From: Bacteroidota bacterium
GTDB taxonomy: Bacteria; Bacteroidota; Bacteroidia; Palsa-965
Direction of reading: 5' to 3'
Assembly (NCBI GenBank): GCA_003153435.1
Contig: PLYR01000032.1
Coordinates: 34,600 to 69,952, forward strand
Length of the DNA: 35,353 nucleotides
A program made the position numbers and the translations under genes. Below the pieces are notes generated by a model that saw only the letters and a program-made list of their open reading frames with translations, searched no databases and was not told where the DNA came from. Positions 5,286-31,623 of the stretch are shown here, piece by piece. Each line of letters opens with the position of its first letter. Position 1 is the stretch's first letter.

Positions 5286-5306
5286 ATTCCCTGAATATCA
5301 GTCTTG

Positions 5307-5336
5307 TTTGATTTAGCAGGGTTTAGCGTATATTTG
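5307..5336 (+). promoter_or_regulatory. Promoter of the second CHU_C gene
   Basis: TTTG at 5307-5310 and a perfect TATATTTG at 5329-5336, 18 nt apart. The predicted start of transcription, near 5343, lies downstream of the TTG codon at 5304 that would give the longest reading frame. The gene therefore most likely starts at ATG 5373. Confidence 0.6.
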
Positions 5337-5372
5337 ATAGTTAATGAAAACATCCTGAAGGATGTACATAAA

Positions 5373-8027
5373 ATGCAAAAGAAGATGTATCCGGAAACTC
5401 ACGATACCAGTAAATCTCGCTTAAGTCCACGATTCCACCGATCTCTTTTTCTGATCATTTGTATCCTTATTTTTTCCATTAATCAGGTAGGTGCACAATG
5501 TGTTGGTTTGCCTATCAATACCTTTCCATACAATGAAGGTTTTGAAGCAGGACCAGCATGGACTATTAAGGCAGATAGCCTTCACTCCGATTGGGCCTGG
5601 GGAACACCCACCCATCCAACGATTAATACCGCAGGCGGAGGATCGAAATGTTGGATGGTCGGAAGTTTAACCGGATCATTTTATAGATACAAACAAGTTG
5701 CAAGTCTCGAAAGCCCCTGTTTTGATTTCACAGCACTTAACTATCCATGGGTTTCCTTTAAAATATTCTGGGAAGATGAATGGAAATATGATGGTATGTC
5801 TTTTCAGTCTTCCCTGGATGGGGGCCTTACCTGGTCTAATGTAGGTGCTTCTTCAGATCCAGTAGATTGTGAAAATACGAATTGGTTCAATAATGCAAAT
5901 GTAACCTGGCTTGACAGTGCAAAATGGGGTGCAACTTTCGGACTACCCAACCTCGGAATCCCAAAGCCTCAGGGCTGGAGTGGTCGTATAGGTGCTACTT
6001 CCGGTCCTTGTCAAGGTGGTAACGGGAGTGGGGGATGGATCACCGCTACCCATTGCCTTGCAGGACTTGCAGGTAAGCCCAGTGTTCGTTTCCGGTTTAT
6101 TTTCGGAGCAGGAACAACCTGTAATTCTTATGACGGAATTGCAATAGACGATATACTGATCAGTAATGCGCCTGTAGAGGTCCCAAACTTTTCCTCTGTT
6201 TGCGCGGGCTCTAACCTTGTGAATTTCACCAACCTTTCAACCCCCTGTACTATTAACAGCACTTGGAATTTCGGAGATCCTGCTTCAGGAGCTTCCAATA
6301 CTTCTAACCTTTTAAATCCATCTCATACATTTTCAGGACCAGGCACGTTTACGGTGATGCTTACTTCGAGCGGCACTTGTAATGCTCCAGCTTCTGTTTC
6401 GATTCCCGTAATTGTGTTAGGCTCTTCCATTACCCCGGTACAAATTAATTGCAATGGAAACAATAATGGTTCAGCAACGGCTATTCCTTCGGGAGGTGCC
6501 GGGCCTTATACCTACTCATGGACTCCTGGAGGCCTAACAACATCTACCATCTCAAACCTTGCCCCTGGCAATTATACAGTGCAGGTATCTGCTTCCGGGG
6601 CTTGTCCAACCAGCGCAACGGTTACGATTTCACAGCCAACGGTATTAACAGTTTCCGGATCAACAACTGCCGCGAGTTGCGGAACGAATACAGGCACTGC
6701 TACCGGCACTCCTTCCGGAGGAACGGCAGCCTATACCTATTCCTGGAGCCCTGGTGGCGCAGCAACTGCAACGATAACCAATCGTCCTCCTGGAAATGAT
6801 ACCTGTTTTATAACAGATGCTAATGGATGTAAAACATCGGTGCCTTTGGTCATAAGTTCTTCAGGTTCCTTGAGCTCCACTGCAACTCCGGTGCCTTCGA
6901 CCTGTAACCTTGCTAATGGAAGTATCAGCACTACGGTGGCCGGTGGCACAGGAGCTTATACCTATTCCTGGGTCCCTTCGGGAGGAACCGGACCCAATGC
7001 CATCAATCTTTCTGCCGGTACTTATACCTGCAATATAAACGATGCTCTGGGATGCACTAAAATTGATACCGTTATCCTGACAAATACGGGCACATTACCT
7101 CTTGCTTCCATAAGTCCGAGCCCAGATACCATTTGTTCCGGTACCAGCTCCCCGATCACCGCATCGGGCGGAGGTACTTATTCCTGGACTTCCGGTGCAA
7201 CCACCCCTGCCATAAGTGTCAATGCTGCCGGTACCTATGTGGTCTATGTTTCCAATGCGTGTGGAACGGACAGCGCCAAGACCATCGTTACGCTTAAATC
7301 CCAGCCTGCGGTAGTGAATGTCGGACCTACTCAGCTTTGCCCGGGTGCATCCTCAATTTTAACTGCCCCTGTCGGAAACACTTATTCCTGGAGTACAGGT
7401 GCCACCACACCTACTATTACGGAAGGCACAACAGGTACTTATTCGGTAACCGTCACCAATTCCTGTGGCTCCAGTATATCTACTTATACTATAAATGTAA
7501 ATAGCGTGAATGCGTTTTTTACAGCCGACAGTTTATCCGGTAAGTCACCACTGCTGGTTCACTTCACGAACGGAAGTTCTCCTTCAGTGAACAGCTGGAG
7601 CTGGAATTTTGGAAATGGAAGCAGTAGCAATCTTCCTAGTCCTTCCAATACTTTTACAGCACCGGGCTATTATACAGTATTCCTCACGGTTCAGAATGCT
7701 GCAGGCTGTACCGCAGTAGATAGTGTTGTCATACATGTGCTTGACCTCCCATCCTGGGTATCGATTCCGAATGTGTTTACGCCCAATGGAGATGGATCAA
7801 ATGACATCTTTTCAATAAGTTCTTACGGCTTGTTGAATTTCGACATGAAGATTTATGACCGTTGGGGAATTCTTATGACCGACTTCTCCAATCCTGTTCA
7901 GGGTTGGGATGGACGGAACAAAACAGGTATCCTGGCAACCGACGGAACCTATTATTATATTATGAGTGCCAAAGGAAATGACGGAAAGGACTACGAGAGA
8001 ACCGGATTCCTTCAGCTCATTCGATAG
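5373..8027 (+). CDS. T9SS type B (CHU_C) cell-surface protein with SprB/PKD-like repeats
   Basis: ATG 5373 is chosen because GAAGG lies 11 nt upstream and the frame above it overlaps a promoter; ATG 5385 is an alternative. The 884-residue product has a signal peptide (about residues 20-41: a basic stretch, a hydrophobic LFLIICILIF core, cleavage after VGA). Next come an N-terminal domain with several Trp and Cys residues, a PKD-like module, three SprB-like repeats (TYSWSPGG), two Ig-like modules, another PKD-type module (WNFGNGSSS) and a CHU_C type B sorting domain (PNVFTPNGDGSNDIF, YDRWG, GWDGRN). It is a close paralog of the protein at 1-3078 but has three repeats instead of seven. Role: T9SS-exported surface protein, perhaps adhesion or motility. 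Confidence 0.92.
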   Translation: MQKKMYPETHDTSKSRLSPRFHRSLFLIICILIFSINQVGAQCVGLPINTFPYNEGFEAGPAWTIKADSLHSDWAWGTPTHPTINTAGGGSKCWMVGSLTGSFYRYKQVASLESPCFDFTALNYPWVSFKIFWEDEWKYDGMSFQSSLDGGLTWSNVGASSDPVDCENTNWFNNANVTWLDSAKWGATFGLPNLGIPKPQGWSGRIGATSGPCQGGNGSGGWITATHCLAGLAGKPSVRFRFIFGAGTTCNSYDGIAIDDILISNAPVEVPNFSSVCAGSNLVNFTNLSTPCTINSTWNFGDPASGASNTSNLLNPSHTFSGPGTFTVMLTSSGTCNAPASVSIPVIVLGSSITPVQINCNGNNNGSATAIPSGGAGPYTYSWTPGGLTTSTISNLAPGNYTVQVSASGACPTSATVTISQPTVLTVSGSTTAASCGTNTGTATGTPSGGTAAYTYSWSPGGAATATITNRPPGNDTCFITDANGCKTSVPLVISSSGSLSSTATPVPSTCNLANGSISTTVAGGTGAYTYSWVPSGGTGPNAINLSAGTYTCNINDALGCTKIDTVILTNTGTLPLASISPSPDTICSGTSSPITASGGGTYSWTSGATTPAISVNAAGTYVVYVSNACGTDSAKTIVTLKSQPAVVNVGPTQLCPGASSILTAPVGNTYSWSTGATTPTITEGTTGTYSVTVTNSCGSSISTYTINVNSVNAFFTADSLSGKSPLLVHFTNGSSPSVNSWSWNFGNGSSSNLPSPSNTFTAPGYYTVFLTVQNAAGCTAVDSVVIHVLDLPSWVSIPNVFTPNGDGSNDIFSISSYGLLNFDMKIYDRWGILMTDFSNPVQGWDGRNKTGILATDGTYYYIMSAKGNDGKDYERTGFLQLIR

Positions 8028-12840: not shown

Positions 12841-13209
12841 CTAGTTATAGATTTTTAGTCCGATAATACCGATGAGGATAAAAATAATAAATACCAACTG
12901 AACCATCGAGACGGGCTCTTTCAACATGATTACTTCTACCAGTTTAACTCCTATGAGCGCCGCCGCCATCCAGACCGCAAAGGCTACAGATGGAGGGATA
13001 GTCTTCATTGCTTTTGAAAAACAAATGATATTTCCAACACCAAAAAGGATATACCCAAGCCCTGGCACGAGGAGCATAAAATTTGCCTTATCAGTAAAGA
13101 GAAGAGAAAACTTGAATTCCAGAAGTTTTTTAAACTGAAAATTCTTAAGGCTATAGATCCAGCATATTTCACAGGTGGATGCAATAAGGAGATAAAACCA
13201 GGCTATCAT
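12841..13209 (-). CDS. Small four-helix membrane transporter, SMR/EamA-like
   Basis: The 122-residue protein has four hydrophobic helices. It begins like small multidrug resistance proteins: WFYLLIASTCEICWIYSLK, with Glu14 at the position of the conserved SMR proton/substrate glutamate. SAFAVW-type signature is present as SVAFAVWMAA, followed by LKEPVS before the last helix. SMR proteins work as dimers and export cations such as quaternary ammonium or guanidinium compounds. The start overlaps the upstream stop codon as ATGA, so it is translationally coupled as the last gene of a sugar operon. A flippase-like role similar to ArnE/ArnF is therefore an alternative to drug efflux. Confidence 0.8.
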   Translation of the reverse strand: MIAWFYLLIASTCEICWIYSLKNFQFKKLLEFKFSLLFTDKANFMLLVPGLGYILFGVGNIICFSKAMKTIPPSVAFAVWMAAALIGVKLVEVIMLKEPVSMVQLVFIIFILIGIIGLKIYN

Positions 13210-14129
13210 AGGATTGATTCTTTCTTTTCGTTCTGACTGTTAGCAGGAGGGTGAGAAGCACGATTAGAACCCGATTTAAAGGTGTTCAGAAACGTGTGTC
13301 GTAATCCTAGGTAACGATTGATGTGTTTGTTTTTGCGCAATTTGGTTTCATCCAGACGAGTAAACAAACTTATAAATTGAAAAAAATAATCACTTGGATA
13401 AGGATAGGGAAGGCCATATTTTATGGGTTTGATATTCGGAAGATAAGCGGTTCCGAAAATCCAGTCCCATATAGCGAACTTGGTGGAGTAGTTAGCAAAG
13501 AAGACATCTTTCTGATCGGCGTGGTGCCATTGGTGCATTTCCGGGCCGTTTATGAAATACTGCAGCCTTCCTGATTTCACATTTATGTTTGAATGAATAT
13601 ACATTCCCCAAACCCCGTCGATGCAAGCTTTAATAGGAATAACGATTGGGTTAACCCCAAGGATGACCATCGGTGCAAATTCTATGGTCTGGTTGATAAT
13701 AATTTCAAGGGCGTGAGAGCGCGAACCGGCAATCCAGTCAACAAAAGTAGCCGAATGGTGTGCTTCATGAGTTCGCCAAAGAATTTTGGAATTATGCTGC
13801 CAGCGATGAAACCAATAAATGTAGAAATCGTGGATTACCAGAAAGAATAGAACCTGCCAGATAACCGGCCAGGCTTTTACGATCTGAATATCCGGAAAGC
13901 TCCAGGCATTATTAATGGGTTGAATAATAAAATCAAAGATGACAATTTTCAGGACGTAGTTTTGCACGATAGAATACCAGAAAAAGTCAATCCAGATTCC
14001 CTCCCGCAGAAAAGGAGATCCGGTGCGGTAAGGAAATTTACGCTCCAGAAAAATAAATAGCCCCATGCTGAAAAGCAGAATGGAGGAAGTGATAAATACA
14101 ATCGTGCTTTCTGACAAACTATTTTCCAT
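13206..14129 (-). CDS. Fatty acid hydroxylase / sterol desaturase family membrane protein
   Basis: The 307-residue membrane protein carries the di-iron histidine boxes of the superfamily: His100 with His108 (HDFYIYWFHR), HEAHH at 121-125, His179 and HQWHH at 199-203. These enzymes hydroxylate or desaturate acyl chains or similar lipid-like substrates at the membrane using O2. Several N-terminal helices precede the first box. The start overlaps the end of the NeuB gene by 11 nt and the stop overlaps the SMR gene, so it is firmly part of the operon. In this context it may modify a lipid carrier, an N-acyl group or the lipid that receives the sugar; the substrate is unknown. Confidence 0.85.
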   Translation of the reverse strand: MENSLSESTIVFITSSILLFSMGLFIFLERKFPYRTGSPFLREGIWIDFFWYSIVQNYVLKIVIFDFIIQPINNAWSFPDIQIVKAWPVIWQVLFFLVIHDFYIYWFHRWQHNSKILWRTHEAHHSATFVDWIAGSRSHALEIIINQTIEFAPMVILGVNPIVIPIKACIDGVWGMYIHSNINVKSGRLQYFINGPEMHQWHHADQKDVFFANYSTKFAIWDWIFGTAYLPNIKPIKYGLPYPYPSDYFFQFISLFTRLDETKLRKNKHINRYLGLRHTFLNTFKSGSNRASHPPANSQNEKKESIL

Positions 14130-15015
14130 TCATATGTGGCAGCGGAAACTTACGTAACCTTTTGAGTGGTCCAAGTTCGCTATCGTAGACTTTCTTTATT
14201 CCATCACCCAGTGCAACCTCAGCAGAGCGTATATCTCTTACCATTTTAGCCATTCCTGGCACCTCAACTGAAGCGGCATGATCGGAGCCCCACATGGCCC
14301 TATCGAGTGTGAAGTGGCGTTCCACAAAACAAGCTCCGATTGCTACAGCAACTACCGTAGTGGCGAGTCCTGTTTCATGTCCTGAATAACCTATCGGGGT
14401 ATCGGGGTACATTTCTTGGAGGGTGTTGATCATGCGCAGGTTTAGCTCTTCCGGAGGACAAGGGTATGAAGAGGTGGAGTGGGCGATGAGCAGATTGTCG
14501 GTTCCAATAGCTTTCACCGCATCTACAATTTCATTCGTTGTCGACATTCCTGTGGAAAGGATCAAGGGCTTCCCGGTAGCTTTTGTTTTCTTGATCAGAG
14601 AGATGTCTGTCAATGATGCAGAAGCCAATTTGTAAAGGACAGGATTAAACTGTTCGATAAAATCAACCGATGGTTCATCCCAGCAGGAGGCAAACCAGGC
14701 AATTCCTTTTTCACGACAGTATTTATCAATTGCAGTATATTCTTCAAGCCCGAATTCGGTTTTGCGTTTGTAATCAATATAACTCATTTGCCCCCAGGGA
14801 GTGTCACGCATAATGCTCCACTGATCTTTCGGGACACATAGCTCGGGAGTTCTTTTTTGAAATTTCACCGCATCGCAATGACATTCTGCAGCAGCATCAA
14901 TGAGTTTTTTTGCAATTTCTAGTGAACCATTGTGATTAATACCAATTTCAGCGATCACGTATGATGGTTGTCCATCGCCTATTTTTTTGTTTTTTCCAAT
15001 GTTAATAAGTCTCAT
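14119..15015 (-). CDS. neuB: NeuB-family sialic/ulosonic acid synthase lacking the SAF domain
   Basis: The 298-residue cytosolic TIM-barrel enzyme condenses phosphoenolpyruvate with an aldose to form a 2-keto-3-deoxy acid. Family motifs are intact: AEIGINHNG (22-30), KFQKR (51-55), KLASASLTD (129-137), LSTGMSTTNE (153-162), HSTSSYPCP (179-187), GYSGHETGL (209-217) and VERHFTLDR (231-239), including both metal-binding histidines. The protein stops soon after the SE...KR linker, where the usual C-terminal SAF (antifreeze-like) domain would begin; typical NeuB is about 345 residues. In N. meningitidis NeuB that domain supplies an arginine that contacts the substrate N-acetyl group, so a different aldose is likely. 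A KdsC-like phosphatase sits immediately upstream, suggesting a phosphorylated product. Confidence 0.88.
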   Translation of the reverse strand: MRLINIGKNKKIGDGQPSYVIAEIGINHNGSLEIAKKLIDAAAECHCDAVKFQKRTPELCVPKDQWSIMRDTPWGQMSYIDYKRKTEFGLEEYTAIDKYCREKGIAWFASCWDEPSVDFIEQFNPVLYKLASASLTDISLIKKTKATGKPLILSTGMSTTNEIVDAVKAIGTDNLLIAHSTSSYPCPPEELNLRMINTLQEMYPDTPIGYSGHETGLATTVVAVAIGACFVERHFTLDRAMWGSDHAASVEVPGMAKMVRDIRSAEVALGDGIKKVYDSELGPLKRLRKFPLPHMNGK

Positions 15016-15027
15016 CGCTTCTTTAGT

Positions 15028-15540
15028 TTAAGTTTTGTTTTTACTATGAATAATAAATTCGGCAACTTCCCGGAAACATCCATTGCCACCTTTGTTTGTG
15101 CACTTGTAATGAATGGCATGCTGGATCAGGTCCATTGCATCTGCGGGGCACGCTGCCAGACCAACGGCACGAAGCACTTCAAGGTCGTTTACATCATCTC
15201 CAATGTAGGCAATTTCTTCTGGTTTGAGATTCTTTCGGCTCAGTATTTCCGCTAGTCTTTCTGTTTTATTTTTTACACCGAGGTGCAATTCAGTAATATT
15301 CAGTTTCTCTGCCCGCTTTGCAACAGATGGTGATATTTCACCGGTTATGATACCGGTCTCCACATTACAGATCTTTAACAGGCGTTCCACACCCATGCCA
15401 TCCCGAATAGAGAATCGTTTAAGTACTTCACCTTCTGCACCATAATAAACACCAGCATCGGTTAGTACACCATCACAATCGGTGAGGAGAAGTTTAATTC
15501 TCCCGGCACGGGCACTTACATCTGTTAAATTCATAATCAT
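15028..15540 (-). CDS. KdsC-like HAD phosphatase
   Basis: ATG 15540 is chosen, 1 nt after the SDR stop codon (ATG 15534 is also possible), giving about 170 residues, usual for KdsC-type tetrameric HAD phosphatases without a cap domain. Visible motifs are LLLTDCDGVLTD (motif I, nucleophile and general-acid Asp), ITGE (motif II Thr), a conserved Lys in LGVKNK, and YIGDDVNDLEV (motif III Asp). KdsC removes phosphate from Kdo-8-P; relatives hydrolyse Kdn-9-P or Neu5Ac-9-P. Placed between the SDR and NeuB genes, it probably dephosphorylates the NeuB product before CMP activation. Confidence 0.88.
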   Translation of the reverse strand: MIMNLTDVSARAGRIKLLLTDCDGVLTDAGVYYGAEGEVLKRFSIRDGMGVERLLKICNVETGIITGEISPSVAKRAEKLNITELHLGVKNKTERLAEILSRKNLKPEEIAYIGDDVNDLEVLRAVGLAACPADAMDLIQHAIHYKCTNKGGNGCFREVAEFIIHSKNKT

Positions 15541-15541
15541 G

Positions 15542-16348
15542 TCAGATTGCTGTCCATCCTCCATCCACAACCAGGTTTGCTCCGGTCATATAAGCGGAGG
15601 CATTGGAAGCCAGAAATATCAACGCCCCTTTATAATCCGAAGGAGAAGCCATGCGGCCCAGCAGGGTTTTGTCGGTATAATTTTTTACAAAGTGTTCGTC
15701 CTGGTTATTCTCCACGCCACCAGGAGAAAGCGTATTCACTCTTACTCCTTTAGAACCCCAATAAGCCGCGAGGTAACGTGTAAAGTTAATGATAGCACCT
15801 TTCGTAGCAGGGTATGAGGGGGATTTATAAAAAGAGTGTTTCCCGTTTTTATCTTTGTAAATACTTTGATCCGGGCCTACCATTCCGTAGGTCGAAGCAA
15901 TATTGATGATGCTTCCTGAGCCTTGCTCAGCCATCGGTGTTCCGAATATTTGAGAGCACAGGAAGACCCCGGTTACATTCACCTGCCAGGATTTTTCCCA
16001 CATATCCAGAGGATAGTTTTCAAACATGCTTTGCTTCCCGGCGAGTAGCGGATTTTCAAACATATCATTGATGGCTGCATTATTTACAAGAATATCAATG
16101 TGTTTGTATTTAGAAAGAATGAGGTCTCTTGCGGCTTTTAGAGATTCCGGATTGGTGACATCAGCCGAGAGACCCAGGTGATTTCCACCGAGGGAGTCCG
16201 CCTTTTCTTTGCATGCTTTTTCCTGAATATCACAGACCACAACATTGGCTCCGGCTGCAGCAAGTGCTTCTACATGCTTTGACCCGAGCAGCCCGCAGGC
16301 ACCCGTAACAATTGCGGTTTTATTCTTCAGAGAAAAAAGGTCCATCAT
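15542..16348 (-). CDS. Short-chain dehydrogenase/reductase (SDR)
   Basis: The 268-residue classical SDR has a Rossmann nucleotide-binding motif TGACGLLG near residues 15-22, DVTN, NNAA near residue 92, a catalytic Ser, and Tyr-x3-Lys in SYPATKGA, then a GG(W)-type C-terminus (VVDGGWT). The Asp in VVCDIQ at the end of the second beta strand favours NAD(H) over NADP(H). An unusually long insertion sits between the catalytic Ser and Tyr (the KDKNGKHSFYKS region), as in some polysaccharide-locus SDRs. It is 3 nt from the aminotransferase gene and 1 nt from the phosphatase gene. Likely role: oxidation or reduction of a sugar intermediate. Confidence 0.88.
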   Translation of the reverse strand: MMDLFSLKNKTAIVTGACGLLGSKHVEALAAAGANVVVCDIQEKACKEKADSLGGNHLGLSADVTNPESLKAARDLILSKYKHIDILVNNAAINDMFENPLLAGKQSMFENYPLDMWEKSWQVNVTGVFLCSQIFGTPMAEQGSGSIINIASTYGMVGPDQSIYKDKNGKHSFYKSPSYPATKGAIINFTRYLAAYWGSKGVRVNTLSPGGVENNQDEHFVKNYTDKTLLGRMASPSDYKGALIFLASNASAYMTGANLVVDGGWTAI

Positions 16349-16351
16349 AAC

Positions 16352-17701
16352 TTATCCTTTAACAGCAGCCTGCTTAGGTTTGATATTATAATTACTCACT
16401 TTACGGAAAACCATTTCGAGGGGTTCACCTTTTAAAGCCTCTGCTACCTTATTTGCTTTCACCGCATCTTTAAGCAGGCCGAGTACTTCCCGGTATGCTT
16501 TGAGGGTATAAGAAATATCTTCATCGCTATGCGTAAAGCACATGTTATGAAAACCGGCCCATAGTATTCCCCGCTTGATCATTTCCTGTTGTACAAAACT
16601 TTTGAGAATGAGCGGGTCCCCGGCGGAGGCATCGAAGGTAACGATGGTCCTGCAGTTATAGCCTGAACACTTGGTATAGGATGCAATTCCCAGTTCTTCC
16701 GCTATCTTGTTATATCCATCTTTAAGTAGGGCTCCTTTTTTATCAAGTGCAGCAGCTACATTTTTCTCTTTCATCTCGGTAATGGTGGCTATGGCAGCAG
16801 CCATGGAAAGAGCTTCACCTCCAAAGGTGGTGAAGAAGAACACTTCTTTCTCGAAAAGCTGCATAACATCTTTACGTCCGGTGAGGAGGGAAATTGGCAT
16901 TCCATTTGCAAAGGCTTTTGAATAAACAGCCAGATCCGGTTTTATTCCGAAATACTCTTGAGCACCACCCAGAGCAACCCGGAAGCCAGTCCACATCTCA
17001 TCAAAAATAAGGAGTGTTCCATTCTTCTTACAGGCAGCCTGAACTTTCTGGAGAAAATCATCTTTAGGGGCTTCAAAGATAAACGGTTCCAGGATCACGC
17101 AAGCTGTATCGCTGTCGAGGGAGCTGATCAGAGAATCAATATTGTTATAATCGAAAGTATGGGTGAGATCTTTCACCTCGGAAGGGATTCCTTTATCGCG
17201 GCTTGTGATCCCTATATACCAGTCATGCCATCCGTGATATCCGCAACAAAGAACTTTTGTACGTCCGGTAAATGCTCTGGAAATTCGCACAGCAGCGCTG
17301 CACACATCTGCACCTGTTTTGCTGATCCGGATGGATTCTGCATTCGGAATAATGCTGTGAACGAGTTCGGCAAGTTCAACTTCCATTTCATGCATCAGGG
17401 AAAAGGTGATGCCATCTTTCAGCTGGGTGATGATGGCCTGGTCTACCTTGTCGTAACAATATCCAAGAGAGATAGGACCTATGCCCATGTTGTAATCAAT
17501 AAATTCGTTTCCATCCACATCCCATACATGCGCATCCTTTCCTCTTTTGAGATATTTAGGAGCGACCCCTTTCATAAACTGACCGGGTCCTTTAGCGAGA
17601 GTCTGCGTAACGGGGTGCATAATTTTAGAAGCCCTAGCGTAGAGTTCATCGGAATGAGTGATGTCGGGATAATTTGAATTGAATTCGATTTTGTTTTTCA
17701 T
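16352..17701 (-). CDS. Class III PLP aminotransferase, glutamate-1-semialdehyde aminomutase-like
   Basis: The 449-residue enzyme has the fold signature of class III aminotransferases and is closest in pattern to glutamate-1-semialdehyde 2,1-aminomutase: CGYHGWHDWY (153-162), LIFDEMWTGFR with the PLP-ring Asp234, and the Schiff-base Lys262 in YSKAFANGMP. Given its setting in a tightly packed sugar operon, it is unlikely to be the haem-pathway enzyme. It more likely aminates a keto-sugar or moves an amino group between neighbouring carbons. It starts 3 nt from the split transketolase C-half. A C-terminal tail of about 40 residues is longer than in HemL. Confidence 0.87.
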   Translation of the reverse strand: MKNKIEFNSNYPDITHSDELYARASKIMHPVTQTLAKGPGQFMKGVAPKYLKRGKDAHVWDVDGNEFIDYNMGIGPISLGYCYDKVDQAIITQLKDGITFSLMHEMEVELAELVHSIIPNAESIRISKTGADVCSAAVRISRAFTGRTKVLCCGYHGWHDWYIGITSRDKGIPSEVKDLTHTFDYNNIDSLISSLDSDTACVILEPFIFEAPKDDFLQKVQAACKKNGTLLIFDEMWTGFRVALGGAQEYFGIKPDLAVYSKAFANGMPISLLTGRKDVMQLFEKEVFFFTTFGGEALSMAAAIATITEMKEKNVAAALDKKGALLKDGYNKIAEELGIASYTKCSGYNCRTIVTFDASAGDPLILKSFVQQEMIKRGILWAGFHNMCFTHSDEDISYTLKAYREVLGLLKDAVKANKVAEALKGEPLEMVFRKVSNYNIKPKQAAVKG

Positions 17702-17704
17702 GTT

Positions 17705-18625
17705 TTATGCTTTTGTAAGAGTTTTCTTTTCTAATTCTGTGATAATGTTATGCGCTATTTTTTCTCCTGTAAACCCTTCGAATTTCAGTACTTCCTGCAG
17801 AAGGGCGGGCTTAAACCATTTTTCATGAAGCGCTATTGGAAGAACATGTGCTGTGGTGTGATGACGTAAGAATGTTTCTGCCACCATGGTATAAAGTCCA
17901 CCAGTAAGAAAATGATCTTCGATGGTGACCAGCAGGCGGGAGTTTTTGGCCGCATCCAGTATAGCCTTTTCATCCAGTGGTTTTAAGGAACGCATATTGA
18001 CAAGTCCGACAGAAAGCCCTTCTTTTTCAAGAATTGTTTTTGTCTTCAGAGTTTCTTCGAAAAGCATTCCGTAGACGAGGAGGGTGACATCCGTTCCTGT
18101 GGCAACCACTTCGGCCTTGCCAATTTCGAAAACTGGATTATGCTTGAAATCTGTTTTCCGGATATTAATTCTTACATAAGCCGGATTAGGAGAGGACCAT
18201 ATTTTCGGAAGAGCACCCAGCAAATCCTGTTCATCGGCAGGAGCAAAGACTTGCATCCCTGGTATTCCTCTCATGATTGAAATGTCTTCAATAGCCTGGT
18301 GAGTGGGTCCGTTTCCATCAGATAGAAAACCGGGGATCCAACTGCTAAGCTTAACAGGAAGATTCGGAATACCAAGGTCGGTTCTGATAAATTCAAAGGC
18401 ACGCATCGTAAGAAAGGAAGCGAGGGCATGAACCACAGGAATCCTTCCACGAAGTGCTAATCCAGCAGCCGCTCCAATCATGGTTTGTTCGGTGATACCG
18501 GTATCAATAAAGCGCTCTTTCAGTGTAGCCGGCATGTTTCTCACCAGGGCTCTGTTCTCTGCAGTCATCACCACAAAGCGTTCATCGGCCAGAGCAGTAT
18601 CTCTTAATAATTCTTCGTAGCTCAT
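17705..18625 (-). CDS. Split transketolase, C-terminal half
   Basis: The 306-residue protein contains the pyrimidine-binding and C-terminal domains of transketolase. The Glu that activates thiamine diphosphate is present (Glu46 in DTGITEQTMIG), along with GPTHQAIEDI, the FAPAD segment and the C-terminal RSLKPLD region. Its partner half is the preceding gene (3-nt gap), so the two must form an alpha2-beta2 enzyme. Transketolases move a two-carbon ketol unit between a ketose and an aldose. Split forms occur in archaea and in bacterial secondary metabolism and surface-sugar loci, so this copy is probably dedicated to the operon rather than to the pentose phosphate pathway. Confidence 0.92.
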   Translation of the reverse strand: MSYEELLRDTALADERFVVMTAENRALVRNMPATLKERFIDTGITEQTMIGAAAGLALRGRIPVVHALASFLTMRAFEFIRTDLGIPNLPVKLSSWIPGFLSDGNGPTHQAIEDISIMRGIPGMQVFAPADEQDLLGALPKIWSSPNPAYVRINIRKTDFKHNPVFEIGKAEVVATGTDVTLLVYGMLFEETLKTKTILEKEGLSVGLVNMRSLKPLDEKAILDAAKNSRLLVTIEDHFLTGGLYTMVAETFLRHHTTAHVLPIALHEKWFKPALLQEVLKFEGFTGEKIAHNIITELEKKTLTKA

Positions 18626-18628
18626 GAT

Positions 18629-19486
18629 TTATCGGACTATAAGTGTTTCGGATTCTATGTTGGTCTGCTCAGCACCGTGCAGTTCTTTCAAAAGACTTTT
18701 TATTTCTTCTTTGTTGAAATTACAGAACCAGCGGTCGGCTCGGGCTTCAATACTTGGAAGCCCTTTTCCGCGAATGGTATCGGCAATGATAACACTTGGT
18801 TTATCAGCGGAGAGCGGCAGAGCCCTGAATGCTTCCTCAAGTTGAAGAAAATCATGTCCGTTTATTCTTTTCACCTTGCAACCAAAAGCTTCAAACTTAT
18901 CGGCAAGCGGCTCCAGGGGGATGAGGTCTTCTGTGGCTACATTCGCTTGGAACTGATTACGGTCTATCACAAATGTAAGGTTGTTCAGCTTGTGAGCGCA
19001 GGCAACAAGAACCGCTTCCCAGACTGACCCTTCATTGAGCTCACCGTCACCGGTCACCACTATGACCTTATTGTTCTGCTTTCTCATTCTGCAATCAAAT
19101 GCCACACCCATTGCTACAGATGGGAGGTGCCCAAGCGACCCGGAATGAAACTCTACACCGGGAACATTCCGGTTGGGGTGCCAGTATACAGAGTCGTTGG
19201 TCTGTAAATGATTTTTCAGGCGATCTTTATCCATCAGTCCAAGCTCCGCAAAGGTTCCATAAAGTGCCGGGACATCATGTCCTTTAGAGAGGAACAGATA
19301 ATCTCGTTCGGGGGAGGTAAGGTTGCCTTTGTGGACGTTCAGGAAGTCGGAATAGAGATAGACCAGGAGATCTGCACAAGAGAGTGATGCACCTGTAAAG
19401 CAACCTCCATCGGTACTCAGGTTGATGATATGTTCTCTTACCTTAAGGGCTGTTTGTTCCAGTTGTTTTCTTTTTTCCTCTTTCAT
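18629..19486 (-). CDS. Split transketolase, N-terminal (thiamine diphosphate) half
   Basis: The 285-residue protein is the thiamine-diphosphate-binding domain of transketolase: SKGH with His70, GSLGH with His120, and the GDG...N motif (GDGELNEG at 146-153, closing Asn in VIDRNQFQ). DVPALY and WHPNRNVPGVEFHSG are conserved substrate-side segments. It lies 1 nt from the cytidylyltransferase gene and 3 nt from the C-terminal half. Together the two halves would catalyse ketol transfer, for instance to build or shorten the sugar later condensed by NeuB. Confidence 0.92.
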   Translation of the reverse strand: MKEEKRKQLEQTALKVREHIINLSTDGGCFTGASLSCADLLVYLYSDFLNVHKGNLTSPERDYLFLSKGHDVPALYGTFAELGLMDKDRLKNHLQTNDSVYWHPNRNVPGVEFHSGSLGHLPSVAMGVAFDCRMRKQNNKVIVVTGDGELNEGSVWEAVLVACAHKLNNLTFVIDRNQFQANVATEDLIPLEPLADKFEAFGCKVKRINGHDFLQLEEAFRALPLSADKPSVIIADTIRGKGLPSIEARADRWFCNFNKEEIKSLLKELHGAEQTNIESETLIVR

Positions 19487-19487
19487 T

Positions 19488-20297
19488 TTAAGCTTCTTTG
19501 GTTTGTTCAGGCCTGATTGTTTTCAATTCGTCCAGATGGTTGCGGTACCAATTAACGCCAGCATACCGGCTATTGATCTGGAATATATCAGAGCGCTTAT
19601 CTACGAGGGCCAGGATATCGTTGATGCCGAATTTTGGATTTATCGGGTAAAGTTCGGTGTAAATACGTTCAATGAAACGGTAATCTTCCATATAATCAAT
19701 TGTCCATCGGTGAGACATGGAATAGTCCTTTCCTGATTCCCAGGAAAAGTTGCCTATCCTGAATTTGTCGGGATTTTCCCAGAGATAAGGGGTGGTATGT
19801 TCCCTCTCCAGTTCCCGTTTGGCTTCTTTCCAGGCTTTTTCCAGTGCAGGAAAGGTCATTATTTCCACATCATTACCATCAGGATAAGAAGCAGGGTGGA
19901 GGTTACTTACGTAATCAAATTCGTTGCGGTGATCTAGAAAGAATTGGATTCCCTTATCAATGATAGCAGGGTCTATGAGTGGGCAGTCTGAAGGAATTTT
20001 TAATATGATATCGGCCTGGAAAACTTTGGCAGCCTGATAATGACGATCTAGCAAATCGGTCGGGTGACCCCGGAAACAAATCAGGTTATTTGCTTTACAC
20101 AGTTCTTCAACTGGATTATCGGTGCTGTCGGTGGTTGTTGCAATAACAACGGTTCCGCAAAGCCGGGAAAGCTGGACTCTTTCTGCCATCCGAACCAGCA
20201 ATGGTTTTGAAACGAGGGGAAGAAGGATCTTGCCAGGCAGACGGCTGGAGCCTGTACGAGCCTGAATAAGAGTAAGGATCTTAACTGGCTGTTGCAA
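19488..20297 (-). CDS. spsF: SpsF-type cytidylyltransferase (CMP-sugar synthetase family)
   Basis: The 269-residue nucleotidyltransferase begins LTLIQARTGSSRLPGK (residues 9-24), the CTP-binding signature of the SpsF/CMP-NeuAc synthetase family. IPSDCPLIDPAIID near residue 100 is the metal-binding segment and MSHRWTIDYMEDY is characteristic of the SpsF branch. It should activate the ulosonic acid with CMP, or another sugar acid with a nucleotide. The start overlaps the upstream gene by 17 nt, and the transketolase gene follows after 1 nt. In Bacillus SpsF works with SpsE (a NeuB homolog), matching the presence of NeuB here. Confidence 0.88.
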   Translation of the reverse strand: MQQPVKILTLIQARTGSSRLPGKILLPLVSKPLLVRMAERVQLSRLCGTVVIATTTDSTDNPVEELCKANNLICFRGHPTDLLDRHYQAAKVFQADIILKIPSDCPLIDPAIIDKGIQFFLDHRNEFDYVSNLHPASYPDGNDVEIMTFPALEKAWKEAKRELEREHTTPYLWENPDKFRIGNFSWESGKDYSMSHRWTIDYMEDYRFIERIYTELYPINPKFGINDILALVDKRSDIFQINSRYAGVNWYRNHLDELKTIRPEQTKEA

Positions 20298-21327
20298 GCG
20301 AGAAAGTGTTAAGAGAAGAATGCTGCTTTAAAAAAGCACTGCCGTCGCCGTTGAACTCCACATATCCTTTGCAAACATCGGCAATCATCCGGGCAGAATT
20401 TCCTTCGGTCTGAATCGGCACGAGCCGGTTCAGTTCAGCCAGATCAAAATAAGAGTGAACTTTCTTACCCAGGATAATGCCTACATACACTACCGTGGAG
20501 AATTGGGTGATGAGCTCACTGCAATTGGCGATCATATGATTTATATTTCCTTCTGTAAGAATCAGGGTATCGGCAGGTGCATTATCACGGATCTCCTGAA
20601 CGGCCCTGTCCATCTTCTCATTGGGATGAAGCTTGAAGATCAGTTTTCTGCCGTTGGCAATCTGAACAGCTTCCCGGATAAAGGCAGGGCGGTTATCATA
20701 GCGGAAACATTCCCGGATGTCGGAAGTTGCCACGAGGACAAAATCTTTATGCGGGAAATCATTATTGCGGTTCTCCGCAAGGTTATCGAAATTAGGAATC
20801 CCGGTCACGACAATCTTGGAGGCTTCAGTGCCCATGCGGCTGATATGCCTTTTATATCCTTCCGAAGCGGCGCAATATATATCACAGAGATTGGAAGAGC
20901 CGTTTAAAGAGGTTCCAAGGGCAAGATAACGGGGAAGCTTAAAAAATTTGGTGATCTTTGCTACAATCGTCAGCTCATCTATCATGCCTTCCTGCACCCA
21001 GATGGTTTTAACACCTCTGAAAACTTTGGGCACAATCATATCGGTACAGGCAACAACCAAATCATACCGGTTATTATAGACTGCGGCACAGTAATCGTTT
21101 TTTAAATTATTTTTTTTCAGATAATGGTCAGCTTTTACTTTAAATTCACCCGCCATAACCGTATGATCTAACAGGCCAAGTTTAACAGTCGTCCGGATCA
21201 TAAAATGATTGGCAAAAATCTGACTGAAATAGCAATCATATTCATCCGACAGGAAGGATGAAATCTGATGCATTTGTGAAGTCTGGTTGGGAGAGCCGAC
21301 CAGGAAAATGATTTTTTTTTTCGACAT
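20281..21327 (-). CDS. GT-B-fold polysaccharide biosynthesis protein (glycosyltransferase or 2-epimerase-like)
   Basis: ATG 21327 is chosen because a TACCTTTG promoter element lies just upstream; a longer frame to 21426 would start above that promoter. The 348-residue product has an N-terminal Rossmann-like start (KKIIFLVGSPNQTSQMH), a middle region with IWVQEGM, and a C-terminal half with VTGIPNFDNL, FKLHPNEKM and an ELITQFSTVVYVGIILGKKV segment. These are typical of GT-B proteins from capsule loci that resemble UDP-GlcNAc 2-epimerases or CDP-glycerol-type transferases. No signal peptide or membrane helix. As first gene of the operon it could transfer the CMP-activated sugar or make its precursor; I cannot decide which. 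Confidence 0.7.
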   Translation of the reverse strand: MSKKKIIFLVGSPNQTSQMHQISSFLSDEYDCYFSQIFANHFMIRTTVKLGLLDHTVMAGEFKVKADHYLKKNNLKNDYCAAVYNNRYDLVVACTDMIVPKVFRGVKTIWVQEGMIDELTIVAKITKFFKLPRYLALGTSLNGSSNLCDIYCAASEGYKRHISRMGTEASKIVVTGIPNFDNLAENRNNDFPHKDFVLVATSDIRECFRYDNRPAFIREAVQIANGRKLIFKLHPNEKMDRAVQEIRDNAPADTLILTEGNINHMIANCSELITQFSTVVYVGIILGKKVHSYFDLAELNRLVPIQTEGNSARMIADVCKGYVEFNGDGSAFLKQHSSLNTFSLATAS

Positions 21328-21351
21328 CCGGTACGCAGAGAAATTATGCCT

Positions 21352-21359
21352 CAAAGGTA
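21352..21359 (-). promoter_or_regulatory. -7 element of the ten-gene sugar operon
   Basis: On the minus strand the sequence is TACCTTTG, a perfect TAnnTTTG element, about 25 nt before ATG 21327. No clear TTTG is visible about 20 nt further upstream, so it may be weak or activator-dependent. Confidence 0.45.
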
Positions 21360-21461
21360 GGTAAATTCTCAAAAGAAGGGTAATAATCCACCTTTCCAAC
21401 TCTGTATAAGTAATTAACAATATCAAAACAAATTACGTACTTTTACTGCATTCTAAATGAC

Positions 21462-22625: not shown

Positions 22626-23243
22626 TTACCTCCAAAAAAATAGCAGTGTCCCGCTCACCGCTCCCAGTAAAAAGCCTATCACCACCTGCATAGGAGTATG
22701 CACTTTCAGATATAAACGGGAAGCACAAACTCCCAGCGTAAGCAGAGAAATGGCCAGATATATTGCTCCAAATCCTTCCGGAGGGTATCTCCAATAAAGC
22801 ACCGTGATGATGGCAAACACCCCCGAAACTCCGGAAGCATGAGTGCTGATTTTCCAGTACCGGTTAATGAGTGTGATACCAGCAATTGTAATCGTACTGG
22901 CCAGCATAGACAAGGTAAGGCCGTCTTTCATCCCTAGTCTCCGAACCAGATAAATCGTGATAGCCACATAAACCAGGAGCAGAAAGATTTGTGGAATCGT
23001 TCGGTCCTTCTGGTTTTCAAGGGTTACCCTGGCAATCAGCTTCATTTTATAAAGCATGAAAATAAGAAGGAAGGAGAATAGAAAGGTGGAAAGGAAGATC
23101 AGGCCAATGGCATGTAGTTTCTCTTCTTGGCTTGTCAGTGTTTCGAGGCCTGGAAAATAAAACAAAAGCAGGATGAAAAGAAAAGTCGGAGCCATGAGTG
23201 GGTTGATCACCACCGAAAGAAGGTTTGCCAGAAATCTTACCAT
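22626..23243 (-). CDS. PAP2-family membrane protein with altered catalytic motif
   Basis: The 205-residue protein has about six hydrophobic helices and residues resembling the PAP2 phosphatase motifs: ENQKDRTIP (motif 1 region), STHASG (motif 2, His) and SRLYLKVHTPMQ (motif 3). In motif 3 the usual Ser-Arg-x5-His-x3-Asp has Gln in place of Asp, so the charge-relay residue is missing. It may be a divergent subfamily using another residue, or a non-catalytic lipid-binding protein. It is convergent with the Omp85 gene (6-nt gap). Confidence 0.75.
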   Translation of the reverse strand: MVRFLANLLSVVINPLMAPTFLFILLLFYFPGLETLTSQEEKLHAIGLIFLSTFLFSFLLIFMLYKMKLIARVTLENQKDRTIPQIFLLLVYVAITIYLVRRLGMKDGLTLSMLASTITIAGITLINRYWKISTHASGVSGVFAIITVLYWRYPPEGFGAIYLAISLLTLGVCASRLYLKVHTPMQVVIGFLLGAVSGTLLFFWR

Positions 23244-23298
23244 GCTTTGCTCGTTTTATTAATTCCCTGCACCAGAATACCGGCTTTTGAATTTTAAG

Positions 23299-23306
23299 CA
23301 AAAATA
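23299..23306 (-). promoter_or_regulatory. Candidate -7 element for the PAP2-like gene
   Basis: Minus-strand TATTTTTG fits TAnnTTTG and lies 56-63 nt upstream of the ATG at 23243. No good -33 element is seen at the expected distance. Confidence 0.3.
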
Positions 23307-23557
23307 GACAGGCCGGGTGAATAAAGGAAATTTGAATGGAAATATACCCAAGTGCCTCAAAAAGAGAGTATAAGACGGAAAATGAAGGCTCCGTTTTCGG
23401 TTTGAGTGAATGCGGAACGATTTACCGGCCTAAAAAAATAAGAATGGATGAAAAGTCGCAAAAATGCATGTAAATACAATAAAAAAGGCCAATAATTGCA
23501 TTAATTCTTTCAATTATTCGATTATTTTCACAAAACCTTATTTTCCGGGAACCCTCA

Positions 23558-23589
23558 TTTGTTCATTTTGCTTATTTCAAGTAACTTTG
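23558..23589 (+). promoter_or_regulatory. Strong Bacteroidota-type promoter
   Basis: TTTG at 23558-23561, then exactly 20 nt, then TAACTTTG at 23582-23589: a full match to the consensus. The predicted start near 23596 leaves about 180 nt of leader before the small lysine-rich gene at 23778. Confidence 0.6.
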
Positions 23590-23595
23590 GGTTAA

Positions 23596-23777
23596 GGTTA
23601 AAGTAACATGGTAAGAATAAAATAAAGCATCTTTAGCAACTTCTTCCTAACCCACCTCCGGTTCTCTGATAAGGACGAATCCAGAGGTTAGATTCTAAGG
23701 ATTTCATAACAGAGAATTTCTAAAAAAGACCGGAGACGTACTTTCATTCCGGTTATGTTGAACGAATAGCATTATTT
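23596..23777 (+). other. Structured 5' leader with mutually exclusive stems
   Basis: This leader lies in the 534-nt stretch without a gene (23244-23777). It holds CTCTG/CAGAG (23664-23668 with 23682-23686) flanked by CTAAC/GTTAG (23647-23651 with 23687-23691). ACCGGAG at 23729-23735 can pair with CTCCGGT at 23656-23662, or its first six bases can pair with TCCGGT at 23748-23753, but not both. The second hairpin ends 24 nt before the ATG. This is the architecture of a regulatory leader, though no known riboswitch class is recognised. The part 23307-23557 shows nothing definable beyond A/T-rich sequence. Confidence 0.4.
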
Positions 23778-23963
23778 ATGGCAAAAGCATCGCGTAAAAA
23801 AGCAAAGAAGAAAGCAAAAAAAGCAAAGAAGTCCCTTCAACCGATTATTGATATCCTGAATGGAGTACCTCCCCGGGAACCTAAACCCGTAAGGTCATTT
23901 ATGGAGATTTACTGGGCAGAAGAATCAGAGGAGCCCGGACGCAGATCCAGAACTGGTTCCTGA
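23778..23963 (+). CDS. Small lysine/alanine-rich basic protein
   Basis: The 61-residue protein starts with a strongly basic tract of Lys-Ala units (residues 2-18), followed by a short hydrophobic helix-like segment (LQPIIDILNG), a Pro-rich linker and an acidic-then-basic tail. The basic N-terminus resembles histone-H1-like or ribosome-associated tails, so nucleic-acid binding is plausible but unproven. A strong promoter and long leader upstream support it as a real gene. It ends 1 nt from the convergent FkbM gene. No family is recognised. Confidence 0.6.
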   Translation: MAKASRKKAKKKAKKAKKSLQPIIDILNGVPPREPKPVRSFMEIYWAEESEEPGRRSRTGS

Positions 23964-23964
23964 A

Positions 23965-24993
23965 TCAATTACCTAAACCGGTGAAACGGCTTTCCAGAAT
24001 ATTCAACCGATTCTGATGGCAGGCAAGGATGTTAATCTGTTCATCGAGGAAACAACGCTCTTCCATTTTAAATTCAAACAATCCAAGCACGGCATCCGGT
24101 GCTGAGGATGGGACGGAGTCTTGTTTACCAGCATGGACTGGAGCTCCCTGATGATCTGAAACAAAGAGTGGTAGGAAAAAGACATATCCAAGATCTTTCA
24201 AAACTCGCATAGGTGCAAGCATCGACTCCGGCGACTCCATGTTTCTGAAATTTTCAAAGAGGATAAAAGGTTTATTGCTTTCGATAGTTTTGTGAGCCCC
24301 AGAAAAAATGGTGGCTTCATGTCCTTCCGCATCTACCTTCATTAACGCTGGAGGAGGAAGAGGGAGCTCATCCAGTCGGGCTCTTTTTATTTTCACTCCG
24401 CTATCCTTCTCCGAAAGCATTGCATTTCCGCTATGAATTCCATCAGGGATGGTGATGAAGGTATCTGAACTGGAATCAGACAATGCCAGACAATGCAACT
24501 GAACCTGAGGAATCAACAAGGCCTGTTTGACAGTACTTTCCAGATCCATAAATGTGGAAGGCATCGGTTCGAAAGCATGAATCTCCCCTTGAAAAGCGGG
24601 ATTGCTCGCCGCATGCAAAGTGAAATGCCCCCAGTTGCTTCCTACATCATAAAAGACATCCTTACGAGTGAGGAGTATATCTATCAGCGCAAGCGTTTCG
24701 GGTTCATAATAGCTGTATTCGGGAAGGTATAAACTATGGAACTGGGTATTTCCGGCCCGGAAAGAAATAGTTGCATTTTTATCCCGGTTGAGGTAAGTAA
24801 AAAGCCCATTGTGTTTCCCCAAGGAGCTCTTCAATAGTCTGAACAAGAATCTGGTTAAAGGCCTCCGTACAAATTTATGAAAGCGCCCCGGTCTTTGTGA
24901 GTAAGCTTGAATATAGATTTTAGCAAGCAAAGGCAGCCTTTCCATCTGGAAGGGCTGCCTGAGAATAACTTTCGAAGAAAAAGACAGTTTCAT
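23965..24993 (-). CDS. FkbM-family methyltransferase
   Basis: The 342-residue protein contains the FkbM SAM-dependent methyltransferase domain: DVGSNWGHFTLHAA (SAM-binding motif I, about residue 117), HAFEPMPSTF (motif II), LHCLALSD, and the FkbM-typical MKVDAEGHEATIFSGA. These enzymes O-methylate sugars or polyketides, and in polysaccharide loci they commonly methylate glycans. The first 80 residues are basic and may mediate membrane or partner contact. No signal peptide. It may modify the surface glycan of the neighbouring operon, but it is not part of that transcript. Confidence 0.85.
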   Translation of the reverse strand: MKLSFSSKVILRQPFQMERLPLLAKIYIQAYSQRPGRFHKFVRRPLTRFLFRLLKSSLGKHNGLFTYLNRDKNATISFRAGNTQFHSLYLPEYSYYEPETLALIDILLTRKDVFYDVGSNWGHFTLHAASNPAFQGEIHAFEPMPSTFMDLESTVKQALLIPQVQLHCLALSDSSSDTFITIPDGIHSGNAMLSEKDSGVKIKRARLDELPLPPPALMKVDAEGHEATIFSGAHKTIESNKPFILFENFRNMESPESMLAPMRVLKDLGYVFFLPLFVSDHQGAPVHAGKQDSVPSSAPDAVLGLFEFKMEERCFLDEQINILACHQNRLNILESRFTGLGN

Positions 24994-29064: not shown

Positions 29065-31623
29065 TTATTTACTGATACAAATCTTTATCGTCTTTGTCTG
29101 ACCGTTTGCCAGGAAGGAGGCGAAATAAATTCCTGGACTCAGGCTCAGGTCTTTTACATTAAAGTGATTGCTGTATGCTCCCGGAAGCAGAGATGTGTTC
29201 AGAAGGATGCTCTCCTGTCCAAGCAGGTTTGTCAGTCGCAGTGAAACAACTCCTTCTTCCTGCACCTGATACTGCATGGTCAGGTTGTCGCTGGTTGGAG
29301 AAGGGTATACCTGAAACAGATTCTCATCCGCTTCTTCGTCTGCGAAAGCAGTACGGCCTGTGGCTGGACCAGTTATTATCTTTCGTTTACGGGCTAGAAT
29401 GGTTCCGCAGGAGAATGTGTTTTTATTGGTAGTGGTTCCGTCTCCCAATTCCCCGTAAGTATTATCACCTGTTGCGCAGAACGGATTACGAGTAGGTTGT
29501 AACCCGAAAGCGATGACGCCTCCACTGAATACTCCTGACCAGAGGGTAGCTCCGATCTGAACGGGACTTTGAATCGTCCACACGGTCCCGTCTCCGGCCG
29601 CACCATAGAAATTACTGCCCCAGGACCAAAGTGTTCCATTCGATTTCAAAGCATAGGAATACTGCAAACGATCACCCCCTGTGGATGTTTGAAGGATCCA
29701 GTCGTTGTCGGTTCCAACCTGAACGAGGGTTGGTTGATCGATCAGGGTGCCAATGCCCAACTCACCGTCTCCATTATATCCGCAAGCCCAGAGTGTACCA
29801 TCACTTTTTTCAGCTACTGTAAAAGCAGCACCTGACCGAAAGGCAATCCATTTGTTATCTGTGCCTATCTGCACCGGAGCGTTTTCATTGTTGGTTGTTC
29901 CATCCCCGAGATCTCCATTGTAATTGGCTCCCCAGGCCCAGAGTGTACCGTCGCTCTTCAGTCCAACCGTATGGTCTTCACTTATACCTACAGCTACCCA
30001 TTTATTGTCGGTACCGATTTGTACCGGGCTGTGTTTATCAATCAATGTTCCATCACCCAATTGTCCTAAATTATTTTGCCCCCAGGCCCAGAGGGTCCCA
30101 TTGGCTTTGATAGCCGCAGAGGAGGAGCCTCCTGCAAAAACGGCGGCCCAATCGTTGTCTGTTCCAACCTGGATCGGGCTGGTTTGCGTAACGGTTGTTC
30201 CATTACCGAGCTGACCGTATTGGTCAGAACCCCAGGCCCAGAGTGTGCCGTTGGATTGGAGAGCAATGGTATGAGAATCCCCACAGTTCATGCCATGCCA
30301 ATTGGTAGCTGTTCCGACTTGCACAGGAGATATGGTGCCGGTAGTTGTTCCGTTGCCTAGCTGCCCCCAGTCGTTATGGCCCCACGCCCACATAGTTCCG
30401 TCGGTATTGACACCGGTTGCAAAACTAGATCCTGCACTGATGCTGGAAACAACTTGATCAGTAGTGTGTACCAGGGTCGGAACCCATTTGTTGACCGTTG
30501 TTCCGTCACCCATCTGACCACTGGTATTCAGTCCCCAGGTCCAGAGACTTCCATCCGCCCGGGTAGCATAAGTTGTTGCAGTATAATATCCACCGGCAGA
30601 AGCACCGAAGCTTACCCAATCGGTTCCGGTTCCAATCTGAACAGGGTTTATTCTGGTAGTGGTTGTTCCATCACCTACTTGGCCAACATTGTTGTACCCC
30701 CACATCCAGAGGGTGCCATCCGATTTGATACCACCGAAGTGCATGTAACTTCCAAAATAGCTTACCCAGGTAGAACCTGTTCCTACCTGAGTAGGGTGGG
30801 TGCCGCTCCAGCCCCAATTCCAGAGTGTTCCATCCGATTTCAAAGCAGCGGTATAATAAGTGCCGGCTGAAACACTGACCCATTTATTGTCTGTACCTGC
30901 CTGGACCGGGCTGTTTCGTTGAGCTGTTGTTCCATCGCCGGTTTCTCCGTCGGCGTTGAAACCCCATCCCCAAAGGGTGCCATCGGCTTTGATGGCGTTT
31001 GAATGTCCACCTCCGGCAGAGATATAGACCCATTTGTTATCCGTGCCTAACTGGAAAGGAGTGTTTTTACAAGCTGTAGACCCTATGCCCAGTTCCCCTT
31101 CTCCATTATATCCCCAGACCCAAAGTGTGCCGTCAGATTTGAGAGCAAGAGTATGGTAATCGCCAGCAGCAACACTGATCCAGTGATTATCGGTTCCTAC
31201 CTGAACAGGTACACACACATTGCCGGGTGCAGTACCATTACCGAGCATGCCGGCCACATTACCTCCCTGAACACCTATGTTGGTACCCCAGGACCATAAG
31301 GTTCCATCGGCTTTGATAGCCATTGAGAAATATCCTCCGGCCGAAACAGTGACCCAGGTGTTGTCTGATCCTACTTGTACCGGACTGCTTTTATTGACGT
31401 GGGTTCCGTCGCCCAGCTCTCCATAATAGTTATCGCCCCAGGCCCAGAGGGTACCGCCTCTTATTTCCAGGGTGTGTGTGCTTCCAGCAGAGACCCGTTG
31501 AAAATTTCCTTTATAAGTCAGGTTTCTCTTGGTATCGCGCCGGTTCACTTGTGCAAAAGATGAATGGAAAGTAAAGACAACAAGAATGAGTAATACGAAG
31601 GCTTTTGAAAAGTAGGATTTCAT
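29065..31623 (-). CDS. RCC1-repeat beta-propeller protein with T9SS type A sorting domain
   Basis: The 852-residue secreted protein begins with a signal peptide (AFVLLILVVFTFHSSFAQ). Residues about 40-770 are 13 clear RCC1 repeats of about 50 residues (DGTLWAWG.N..GQLGDGT, then PVQVGTDNKWV, then HTLALKS) plus a degenerate 14th (GDNTYGELGDGT). Fourteen repeats would build two seven-bladed propellers. The C-terminus has a type A sorting domain (VYPSPTSDNLTM to KTIKICISK). The repeats lack catalytic motifs; RCC1-type propellers usually bind proteins, so an adhesin or scaffold is likely. The repeats are similar but not identical at the DNA level. Confidence 0.92.
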   Translation of the reverse strand: MKSYFSKAFVLLILVVFTFHSSFAQVNRRDTKRNLTYKGNFQRVSAGSTHTLEIRGGTLWAWGDNYYGELGDGTHVNKSSPVQVGSDNTWVTVSAGGYFSMAIKADGTLWSWGTNIGVQGGNVAGMLGNGTAPGNVCVPVQVGTDNHWISVAAGDYHTLALKSDGTLWVWGYNGEGELGIGSTACKNTPFQLGTDNKWVYISAGGGHSNAIKADGTLWGWGFNADGETGDGTTAQRNSPVQAGTDNKWVSVSAGTYYTAALKSDGTLWNWGWSGTHPTQVGTGSTWVSYFGSYMHFGGIKSDGTLWMWGYNNVGQVGDGTTTTRINPVQIGTGTDWVSFGASAGGYYTATTYATRADGSLWTWGLNTSGQMGDGTTVNKWVPTLVHTTDQVVSSISAGSSFATGVNTDGTMWAWGHNDWGQLGNGTTTGTISPVQVGTATNWHGMNCGDSHTIALQSNGTLWAWGSDQYGQLGNGTTVTQTSPIQVGTDNDWAAVFAGGSSSAAIKANGTLWAWGQNNLGQLGDGTLIDKHSPVQIGTDNKWVAVGISEDHTVGLKSDGTLWAWGANYNGDLGDGTTNNENAPVQIGTDNKWIAFRSGAAFTVAEKSDGTLWACGYNGDGELGIGTLIDQPTLVQVGTDNDWILQTSTGGDRLQYSYALKSNGTLWSWGSNFYGAAGDGTVWTIQSPVQIGATLWSGVFSGGVIAFGLQPTRNPFCATGDNTYGELGDGTTTNKNTFSCGTILARKRKIITGPATGRTAFADEEADENLFQVYPSPTSDNLTMQYQVQEEGVVSLRLTNLLGQESILLNTSLLPGAYSNHFNVKDLSLSPGIYFASFLANGQTKTIKICISK

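Follow-up and report, generated by a model that had tools for sequence, protein, structure and literature searches.

The stretch of DNA analysed here (the window, 35,353 nt) contains, on the plus strand at 23778-23963, an open reading frame for a lysine-rich protein of 61 amino acids with a C-terminal MEIYWAEE motif; the ATG lies at 23778 and the stop codon ends at 23963. The gene stands alone; its neighbours are a PAP2-family gene transcribed divergently from it (22626-23243, minus strand) and an FkbM-type methyltransferase gene that converges on it (23965-24993, minus strand). Two related genomes, G001 and G003, carry syntenic orthologs with a protein identity of 41-43% that adjoin the same PAP2/Omp85 genes as in the window. 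G001 also has the convergent FkbM-type gene; the gene at this position in G003 is another one, whose translated flank resembles the end of a recQ-type helicase. On the strength of syntenic orthologs in two sister species, the open reading frame is a real gene. The window belongs to a Bacteroidota genome and encodes type IX secretion domains; the records of the sister species are metagenome-assembled and labelled 'Bacteroidetes bacterium', and we take them, by their names, to come from soil.

G001 (contig C148) and G002 (contig C71) each carry a diverged paralog of the gene. Common to all copies of the family are a strongly basic N-terminus and a YWA[ED] motif near the C-terminus. The small basic protein of the original prediction is thus real and conserved in sister species, with the correction that its Lys-Ala stretch (MAKASRKKAKKKAKKAKKS) is N-terminal and does not form a C-terminal tail. 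Searches with the protein or with family profiles returned no homologs beyond the three orthologs and two paralogs; they covered 59 relatives, 395 members of the class, the order as represented by 12 genomes, and the genome collection. The PAP2 loci of other members of the order have no small YWAE gene alongside. One match in a further genome (G126, locus L009) was dismissed as chance, being located inside an unrelated reading frame of 143 amino acids. No Pfam or NCBIfam family fits the protein, and by either database it is no known ribosomal protein. As far as the genomes searched show, the gene appears restricted to one genus.

The remainder of the window includes several recognizable gene groups. 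A minus-strand cluster (12841-21426), largely collinear in G001 and G003, encodes NeuB, a CMP-sugar-type cytidylyltransferase, a protein with a weak match to UDP-GlcNAc 2-epimerase, an SDR protein, a HAD hydrolase, a class-III aminotransferase, and a split transketolase whose N and C halves are separate genes; its gene content suggests a nonulosonic-acid pathway in which the transketolase step is unusual. Two large surface proteins (64-3078 and 5304-8027) contain SprB repeats, PKD domains and a CHU_C type IX secretion signal, and are separated by nucleoside transporter and cytidine deaminase genes. In G001 and G002, reading frames homologous to these surface-protein genes occur on the contigs that carry the YWAE paralog. 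Positions 29065-31623 encode a protein of 852 amino acids that is built of RCC1 repeats and carries a C-terminal sorting domain for type IX secretion.

Upstream of the small gene, a plus-strand promoter spans 23558-23589, with the -33 element TTTG at 23558-23561 and the -7 element TAACTTTG at 23582-23589, 20 nt apart. The Bacteroidota sigma-ABfr consensus is TTTG/TAnnTTTG (PMC7366714, PMC6847099), with TTTG lying approximately 20 nt 5' of TAnnTTTG, and the window promoter matches it exactly in both elements and in spacing; it also complies with the revised consensus TAHHTTTG of F. johnsoniae (PMC6847099). The full-consensus promoter proposed earlier was therefore found exactly where it had been placed, and it is conserved in sister species. 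The same layout occurs at both orthologs and at the G002 paralog, all of which have an identical TAACTTTG, so that of the promoters at four related genes three are exact and that of the G001 paralog is one base off. The pattern TTTG-N18-22-TANNTTTG occurs four times in the window, where 0.94 occurrences are expected by chance. Reading of the leader for a second, closer promoter revealed no TAnnTTTG. When the intergenic region and gene are aligned three ways, conservation exceeds background only in the promoter, with 11 invariant bases out of 20 at 23581-23600, and in the codons of the YWAE stretch (16/20 at 23901-23920), the leader and the spacer upstream of the promoter remaining at background. 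Between the PAP2 gene and the small gene, positions 23296-23335 strongly resemble G003; the minus strand of this segment contains TATTTTTG, and the segment may be the promoter of the PAP2 gene.

The window promoter differs from other sigma-ABfr promoters in having TAAC-like repeats with 11-nt spacing that run through and past its -7 element. These operator-like repeats (GTAAC, TTAAG and GTAAC; 23581-23607, plus strand), the first of which begins inside the -7 element, have counterparts in all five gene copies of the family: ATAAC/ATAAC/TTAAC and TTAAC/TTAAT/TTCAC at the orthologs in G001 and G003, respectively, and TTAAC/GTAAC/TTAAC and TTTAC/ATAAC/TTAAC at the paralogs in G002 and G001, respectively. 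Genome-wide, the pattern is not enriched over reversed-pattern controls, which implies that any regulon is small or that the repeats serve these genes only, and the neighbours of the best other sites share no common theme. A similar TAACTTTG-TAAC site was seen in G003 (locus L041, 1501-1526), between a CRP/FNR-like regulator, identified by eye from its translation, and a divergent secreted-protein-like gene. Judged by their layout in the five copies, the repeats are probably an operator for a regulator that binds direct repeats. Operators of OmpR/PhoB-family response regulators are direct repeats, as in the PhoP boxes of Bacillus. The window shares with them short AT-rich direct repeats at 11-nt spacing, a layout found in the five gene copies, and differs in that its repeats cover -7 to approximately +12 and are not enriched in the genome; a link to this family is by analogy a lead only.

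Transcription from this promoter would start near 23596, giving a predicted plus-strand 5' leader of approximately 180 nt (23596-23777). The distance between the -7 element and the ATG is 188, 191 and 178 nt in the orthologs of the window, G001 and G003, respectively, versus 31 nt in the G002 paralog. The long leader of the original prediction is accordingly kept in sister species, its start being placed from the promoter. In B. thetaiotaomicron, the median length of 5' UTRs is 32 nt, with 13.5% of them longer than 100 nt (PMC7366714), so a leader of this size is long but not rare. Both paralogous loci (L014 on contig C148 of G001, and L008, 1427-1659) consist of a YWA[ED] gene with the same TAAC-repeat promoter and a leader of approximately 31 nt; there the promoter has been retained along with the protein motif and the long leader has not, so that the repeats are present also where leaders are short.

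Although similar in length in the three orthologs, the leader is mostly unconserved in sequence. It is not unusually stable as a whole (z -0.49), the leader of each ortholog folds no better than its own shuffles, and three-way RNAalifold analysis gave no consensus fold of the three leaders. The sub-segment 23654-23736 is unusually stable at z -2.76, a value obtained with ends picked after the fact. Searches against Rfam gave no match in the window or the leader at the gathering threshold, and none in the leader at a permissive one either; one weak match lay in L002 (2225-2249), outside the leader. The leader contains no terminator-like site or U-run after a hairpin on this strand. A five-codon open reading frame (MVRIK) at 23608 in the window was considered as a leader peptide and discarded, as it is without counterpart in G001 and G003.

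In one alternative reading, the leader has no function of its own and is a spacer whose pairings and whose block shared with G001 (described below) are residue or chance, control being exercised at the promoter only. Conservation at background, the lack of excess stability and of a three-way consensus fold, the absence of the shared block from G003, and paralogs that manage with 31 nt are all consistent with such a reading, which we regard as possible, if doubtful. Against it stand the retention of leader length in the three orthologs and two properties of the block, namely a similarity to G001 that, under two of the four scoring schemes, no real tile out of 558 reaches, next to an upstream spacer that cannot be aligned, and the compensatory changes in one of its hairpins.

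It had been proposed that ACCGGAG (23729-23735) pairs with either an upstream CTCCGGT (23656-23662) or a downstream TCCGGT (23748-23753); in a two-state switch of this kind, the choice between these pairings would control translation of the small protein. All three motifs are present at these positions. When the window leader is folded alone, both pairings are isoenergetic (-35.9 kcal/mol) and of comparable probability; the balance shifts with the chosen 3' end, the upstream pairing having probabilities of 0.48, 0.61 and 0.16. When the whole mRNA is folded, both fall below 0.01 and ACCGGAG pairs within the coding region instead. The end of the downstream strand lies 25 nt upstream of the ATG, and the start-codon region is unpaired to 58% in one state versus 59% in the other.

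Comparison with the sister species separates the two pairings. The upstream pairing, referred to here as P0 (23656-23735, plus strand), can be re-formed in G001, where six of its seven pairs are kept, including one compensatory pair and one G-U. G001 also has a downstream TCCGG; there, however, the middle strand GTCGGA directly abuts the downstream TCCGGA, and because the two are adjacent no loop remains and the alternative hairpin, formed in the window by ACCGGA (23729-23734) and TCCGGT (23748-23753; plus strand), cannot exist. Its appearance in the whole-leader RNAalifold output is an artefact of gap columns that hide the missing loop. The G003 leader contains no such triple and forms neither pairing. 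Conservation of the mutually exclusive pairing is thus not supported, and of the two pairings originally described only the upstream one has a counterpart in G001. Among dinucleotide shuffles of the leader, 0.2% contain a GC-rich triple of 7+6 nt, as do 8 of 704 overlapping 184-nt tiles taken from the window; to meet such a triple in a stretch of 35 kb is therefore no surprise. The leader lacks the two mutually exclusive conserved structures of a riboswitch-type element, and it neither hides the start nor contains a terminator in one state, predicted accessibility being equal in both. A conserved two-state switch is not supported and the leader is probably not a true switch; we consider translational control by such a choice quite unlikely.

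The leader does share one segment with G001, a plus-strand block at 23654-23704 whose local alignment scores above real-sequence tiles in most scoring schemes. Its score was reached by 0/558, 27/558, 6/558 and 0/558 real tiles of the G001 contig under four schemes; the block is known from two sequences only, and its ends were chosen after the similarity had been seen. Window and G003 leaders have no similarity, and nothing of the block occurs in G003. Since the spacer 5' of the promoter is unalignable between the window and G001, the block is probably under some constraint, as judged from this sequence comparison.

Two predicted plus-strand hairpins fall within the block: P1 (23663-23687), in which TCTCTG (23663-23668) pairs with CAGAGG (23682-23687) and the sequence of both strands is kept in G001, and P2 (23688-23698), in which TTAG (23688-23691) pairs with CTAA (23695-23698) and two of four pairs are compensatory in G001. 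RNAalifold returned P1 within the block, and on the block alignment gave P0, P1 and P2 together unprompted, at z -4.5 to -5.9 with 0/2000 column shuffles as good. This column-shuffle test is too lenient, since P0 was already known when the segment's 3' end was set, and we therefore based our judgement on a stricter null in which the best placement is re-chosen each time. Over the window and G001, 31 of 32 cells are paired and covariation amounts to three compensatory pairs (two in P2, one in P0) in two sequences, the element being absent in G003. Under the strict null, p is ~0.03 for the whole fold, ~0.015 for the P2 letters and ~0.16 for the P0 strand, which makes the P2 hairpin suggestive and leaves the P0 pairing not established. 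The invariant U-G of P1 and the G-U in the P0 of G001 favour the plus (mRNA) strand. In the window, the state with P0, P1 and P2 exceeds the minimum by 7 kcal/mol; the minimum-energy fold retains P0 and has a longer alternative helix inside it. A covariance model built from the two sequences (R1) and searched against 30 relatives matched only the genome of the window and G001; all others had E >1.

Candidate structured 5' leaders of Bacteroidota such as Flavo-1 and the ribosomal-protein leaders resemble this one, a long 5' UTR before one gene that may contain a hairpin element. The present leader differs from them in having no Rfam match, an element in two species only, and a downstream protein that is no known ribosomal protein. 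The long 5' UTR may hold a lineage-specific RNA element, for which support is modest.

Autoregulation, in which the lysine-rich protein would bind its own leader hairpins and repress or stabilise its mRNA, is consistent with the strongly basic N-terminus in all copies and with a long leader that has a possible hairpin element. Basic N-termini, however, are not specific to RNA binders, and the G003 ortholog without the element, together with paralogs without the long leader, argues against autoregulation as a general property of the family; we consider it highly unlikely. A narrower version, a genus-specific leader RNA in which P0 closes tandem P1 and P2 and which is bound by its own YWAE protein, is likewise a long shot; if true, RNA and protein would form an autoregulatory pair of recent origin that is limited to a single genus of soil Bacteroidota.

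The gene, its promoter and the repeats are conserved, as is, in G001, the block. The reading we prefer, with roughly even confidence, is a promoter-controlled single gene with a mostly spacer leader, lineage-specific hairpins and no two-state switch. The locus would be a transcription unit with a single gene, in which the housekeeping Bacteroidota sigma factor and RNA polymerase would start near 23596 from the strong TTTG/TAACTTTG promoter. The TAAC repeats in the -7 element and the first transcribed bases would probably act as an operator for a direct-repeat-binding regulator, and the level of the small lysine-rich protein would be set mainly at the promoter/operator. Most of the leader of approximately 180 nt would be spacer free of constraint. 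Hairpins kept in one sister species would form in the middle of the leader (23654-23704), perhaps with P0 closing them, and would most likely tune mRNA stability or translation in that lineage.

These results define a small orphan family with a basic N-terminus and a conserved YWA[ED] C-terminus, whose promoter is unusually well conserved and is accompanied by operator-like repeats. The leader is an example in which length is retained while sequence turns over. Should the hairpin element be confirmed in further species, it would represent a young leader RNA specific to its lineage.
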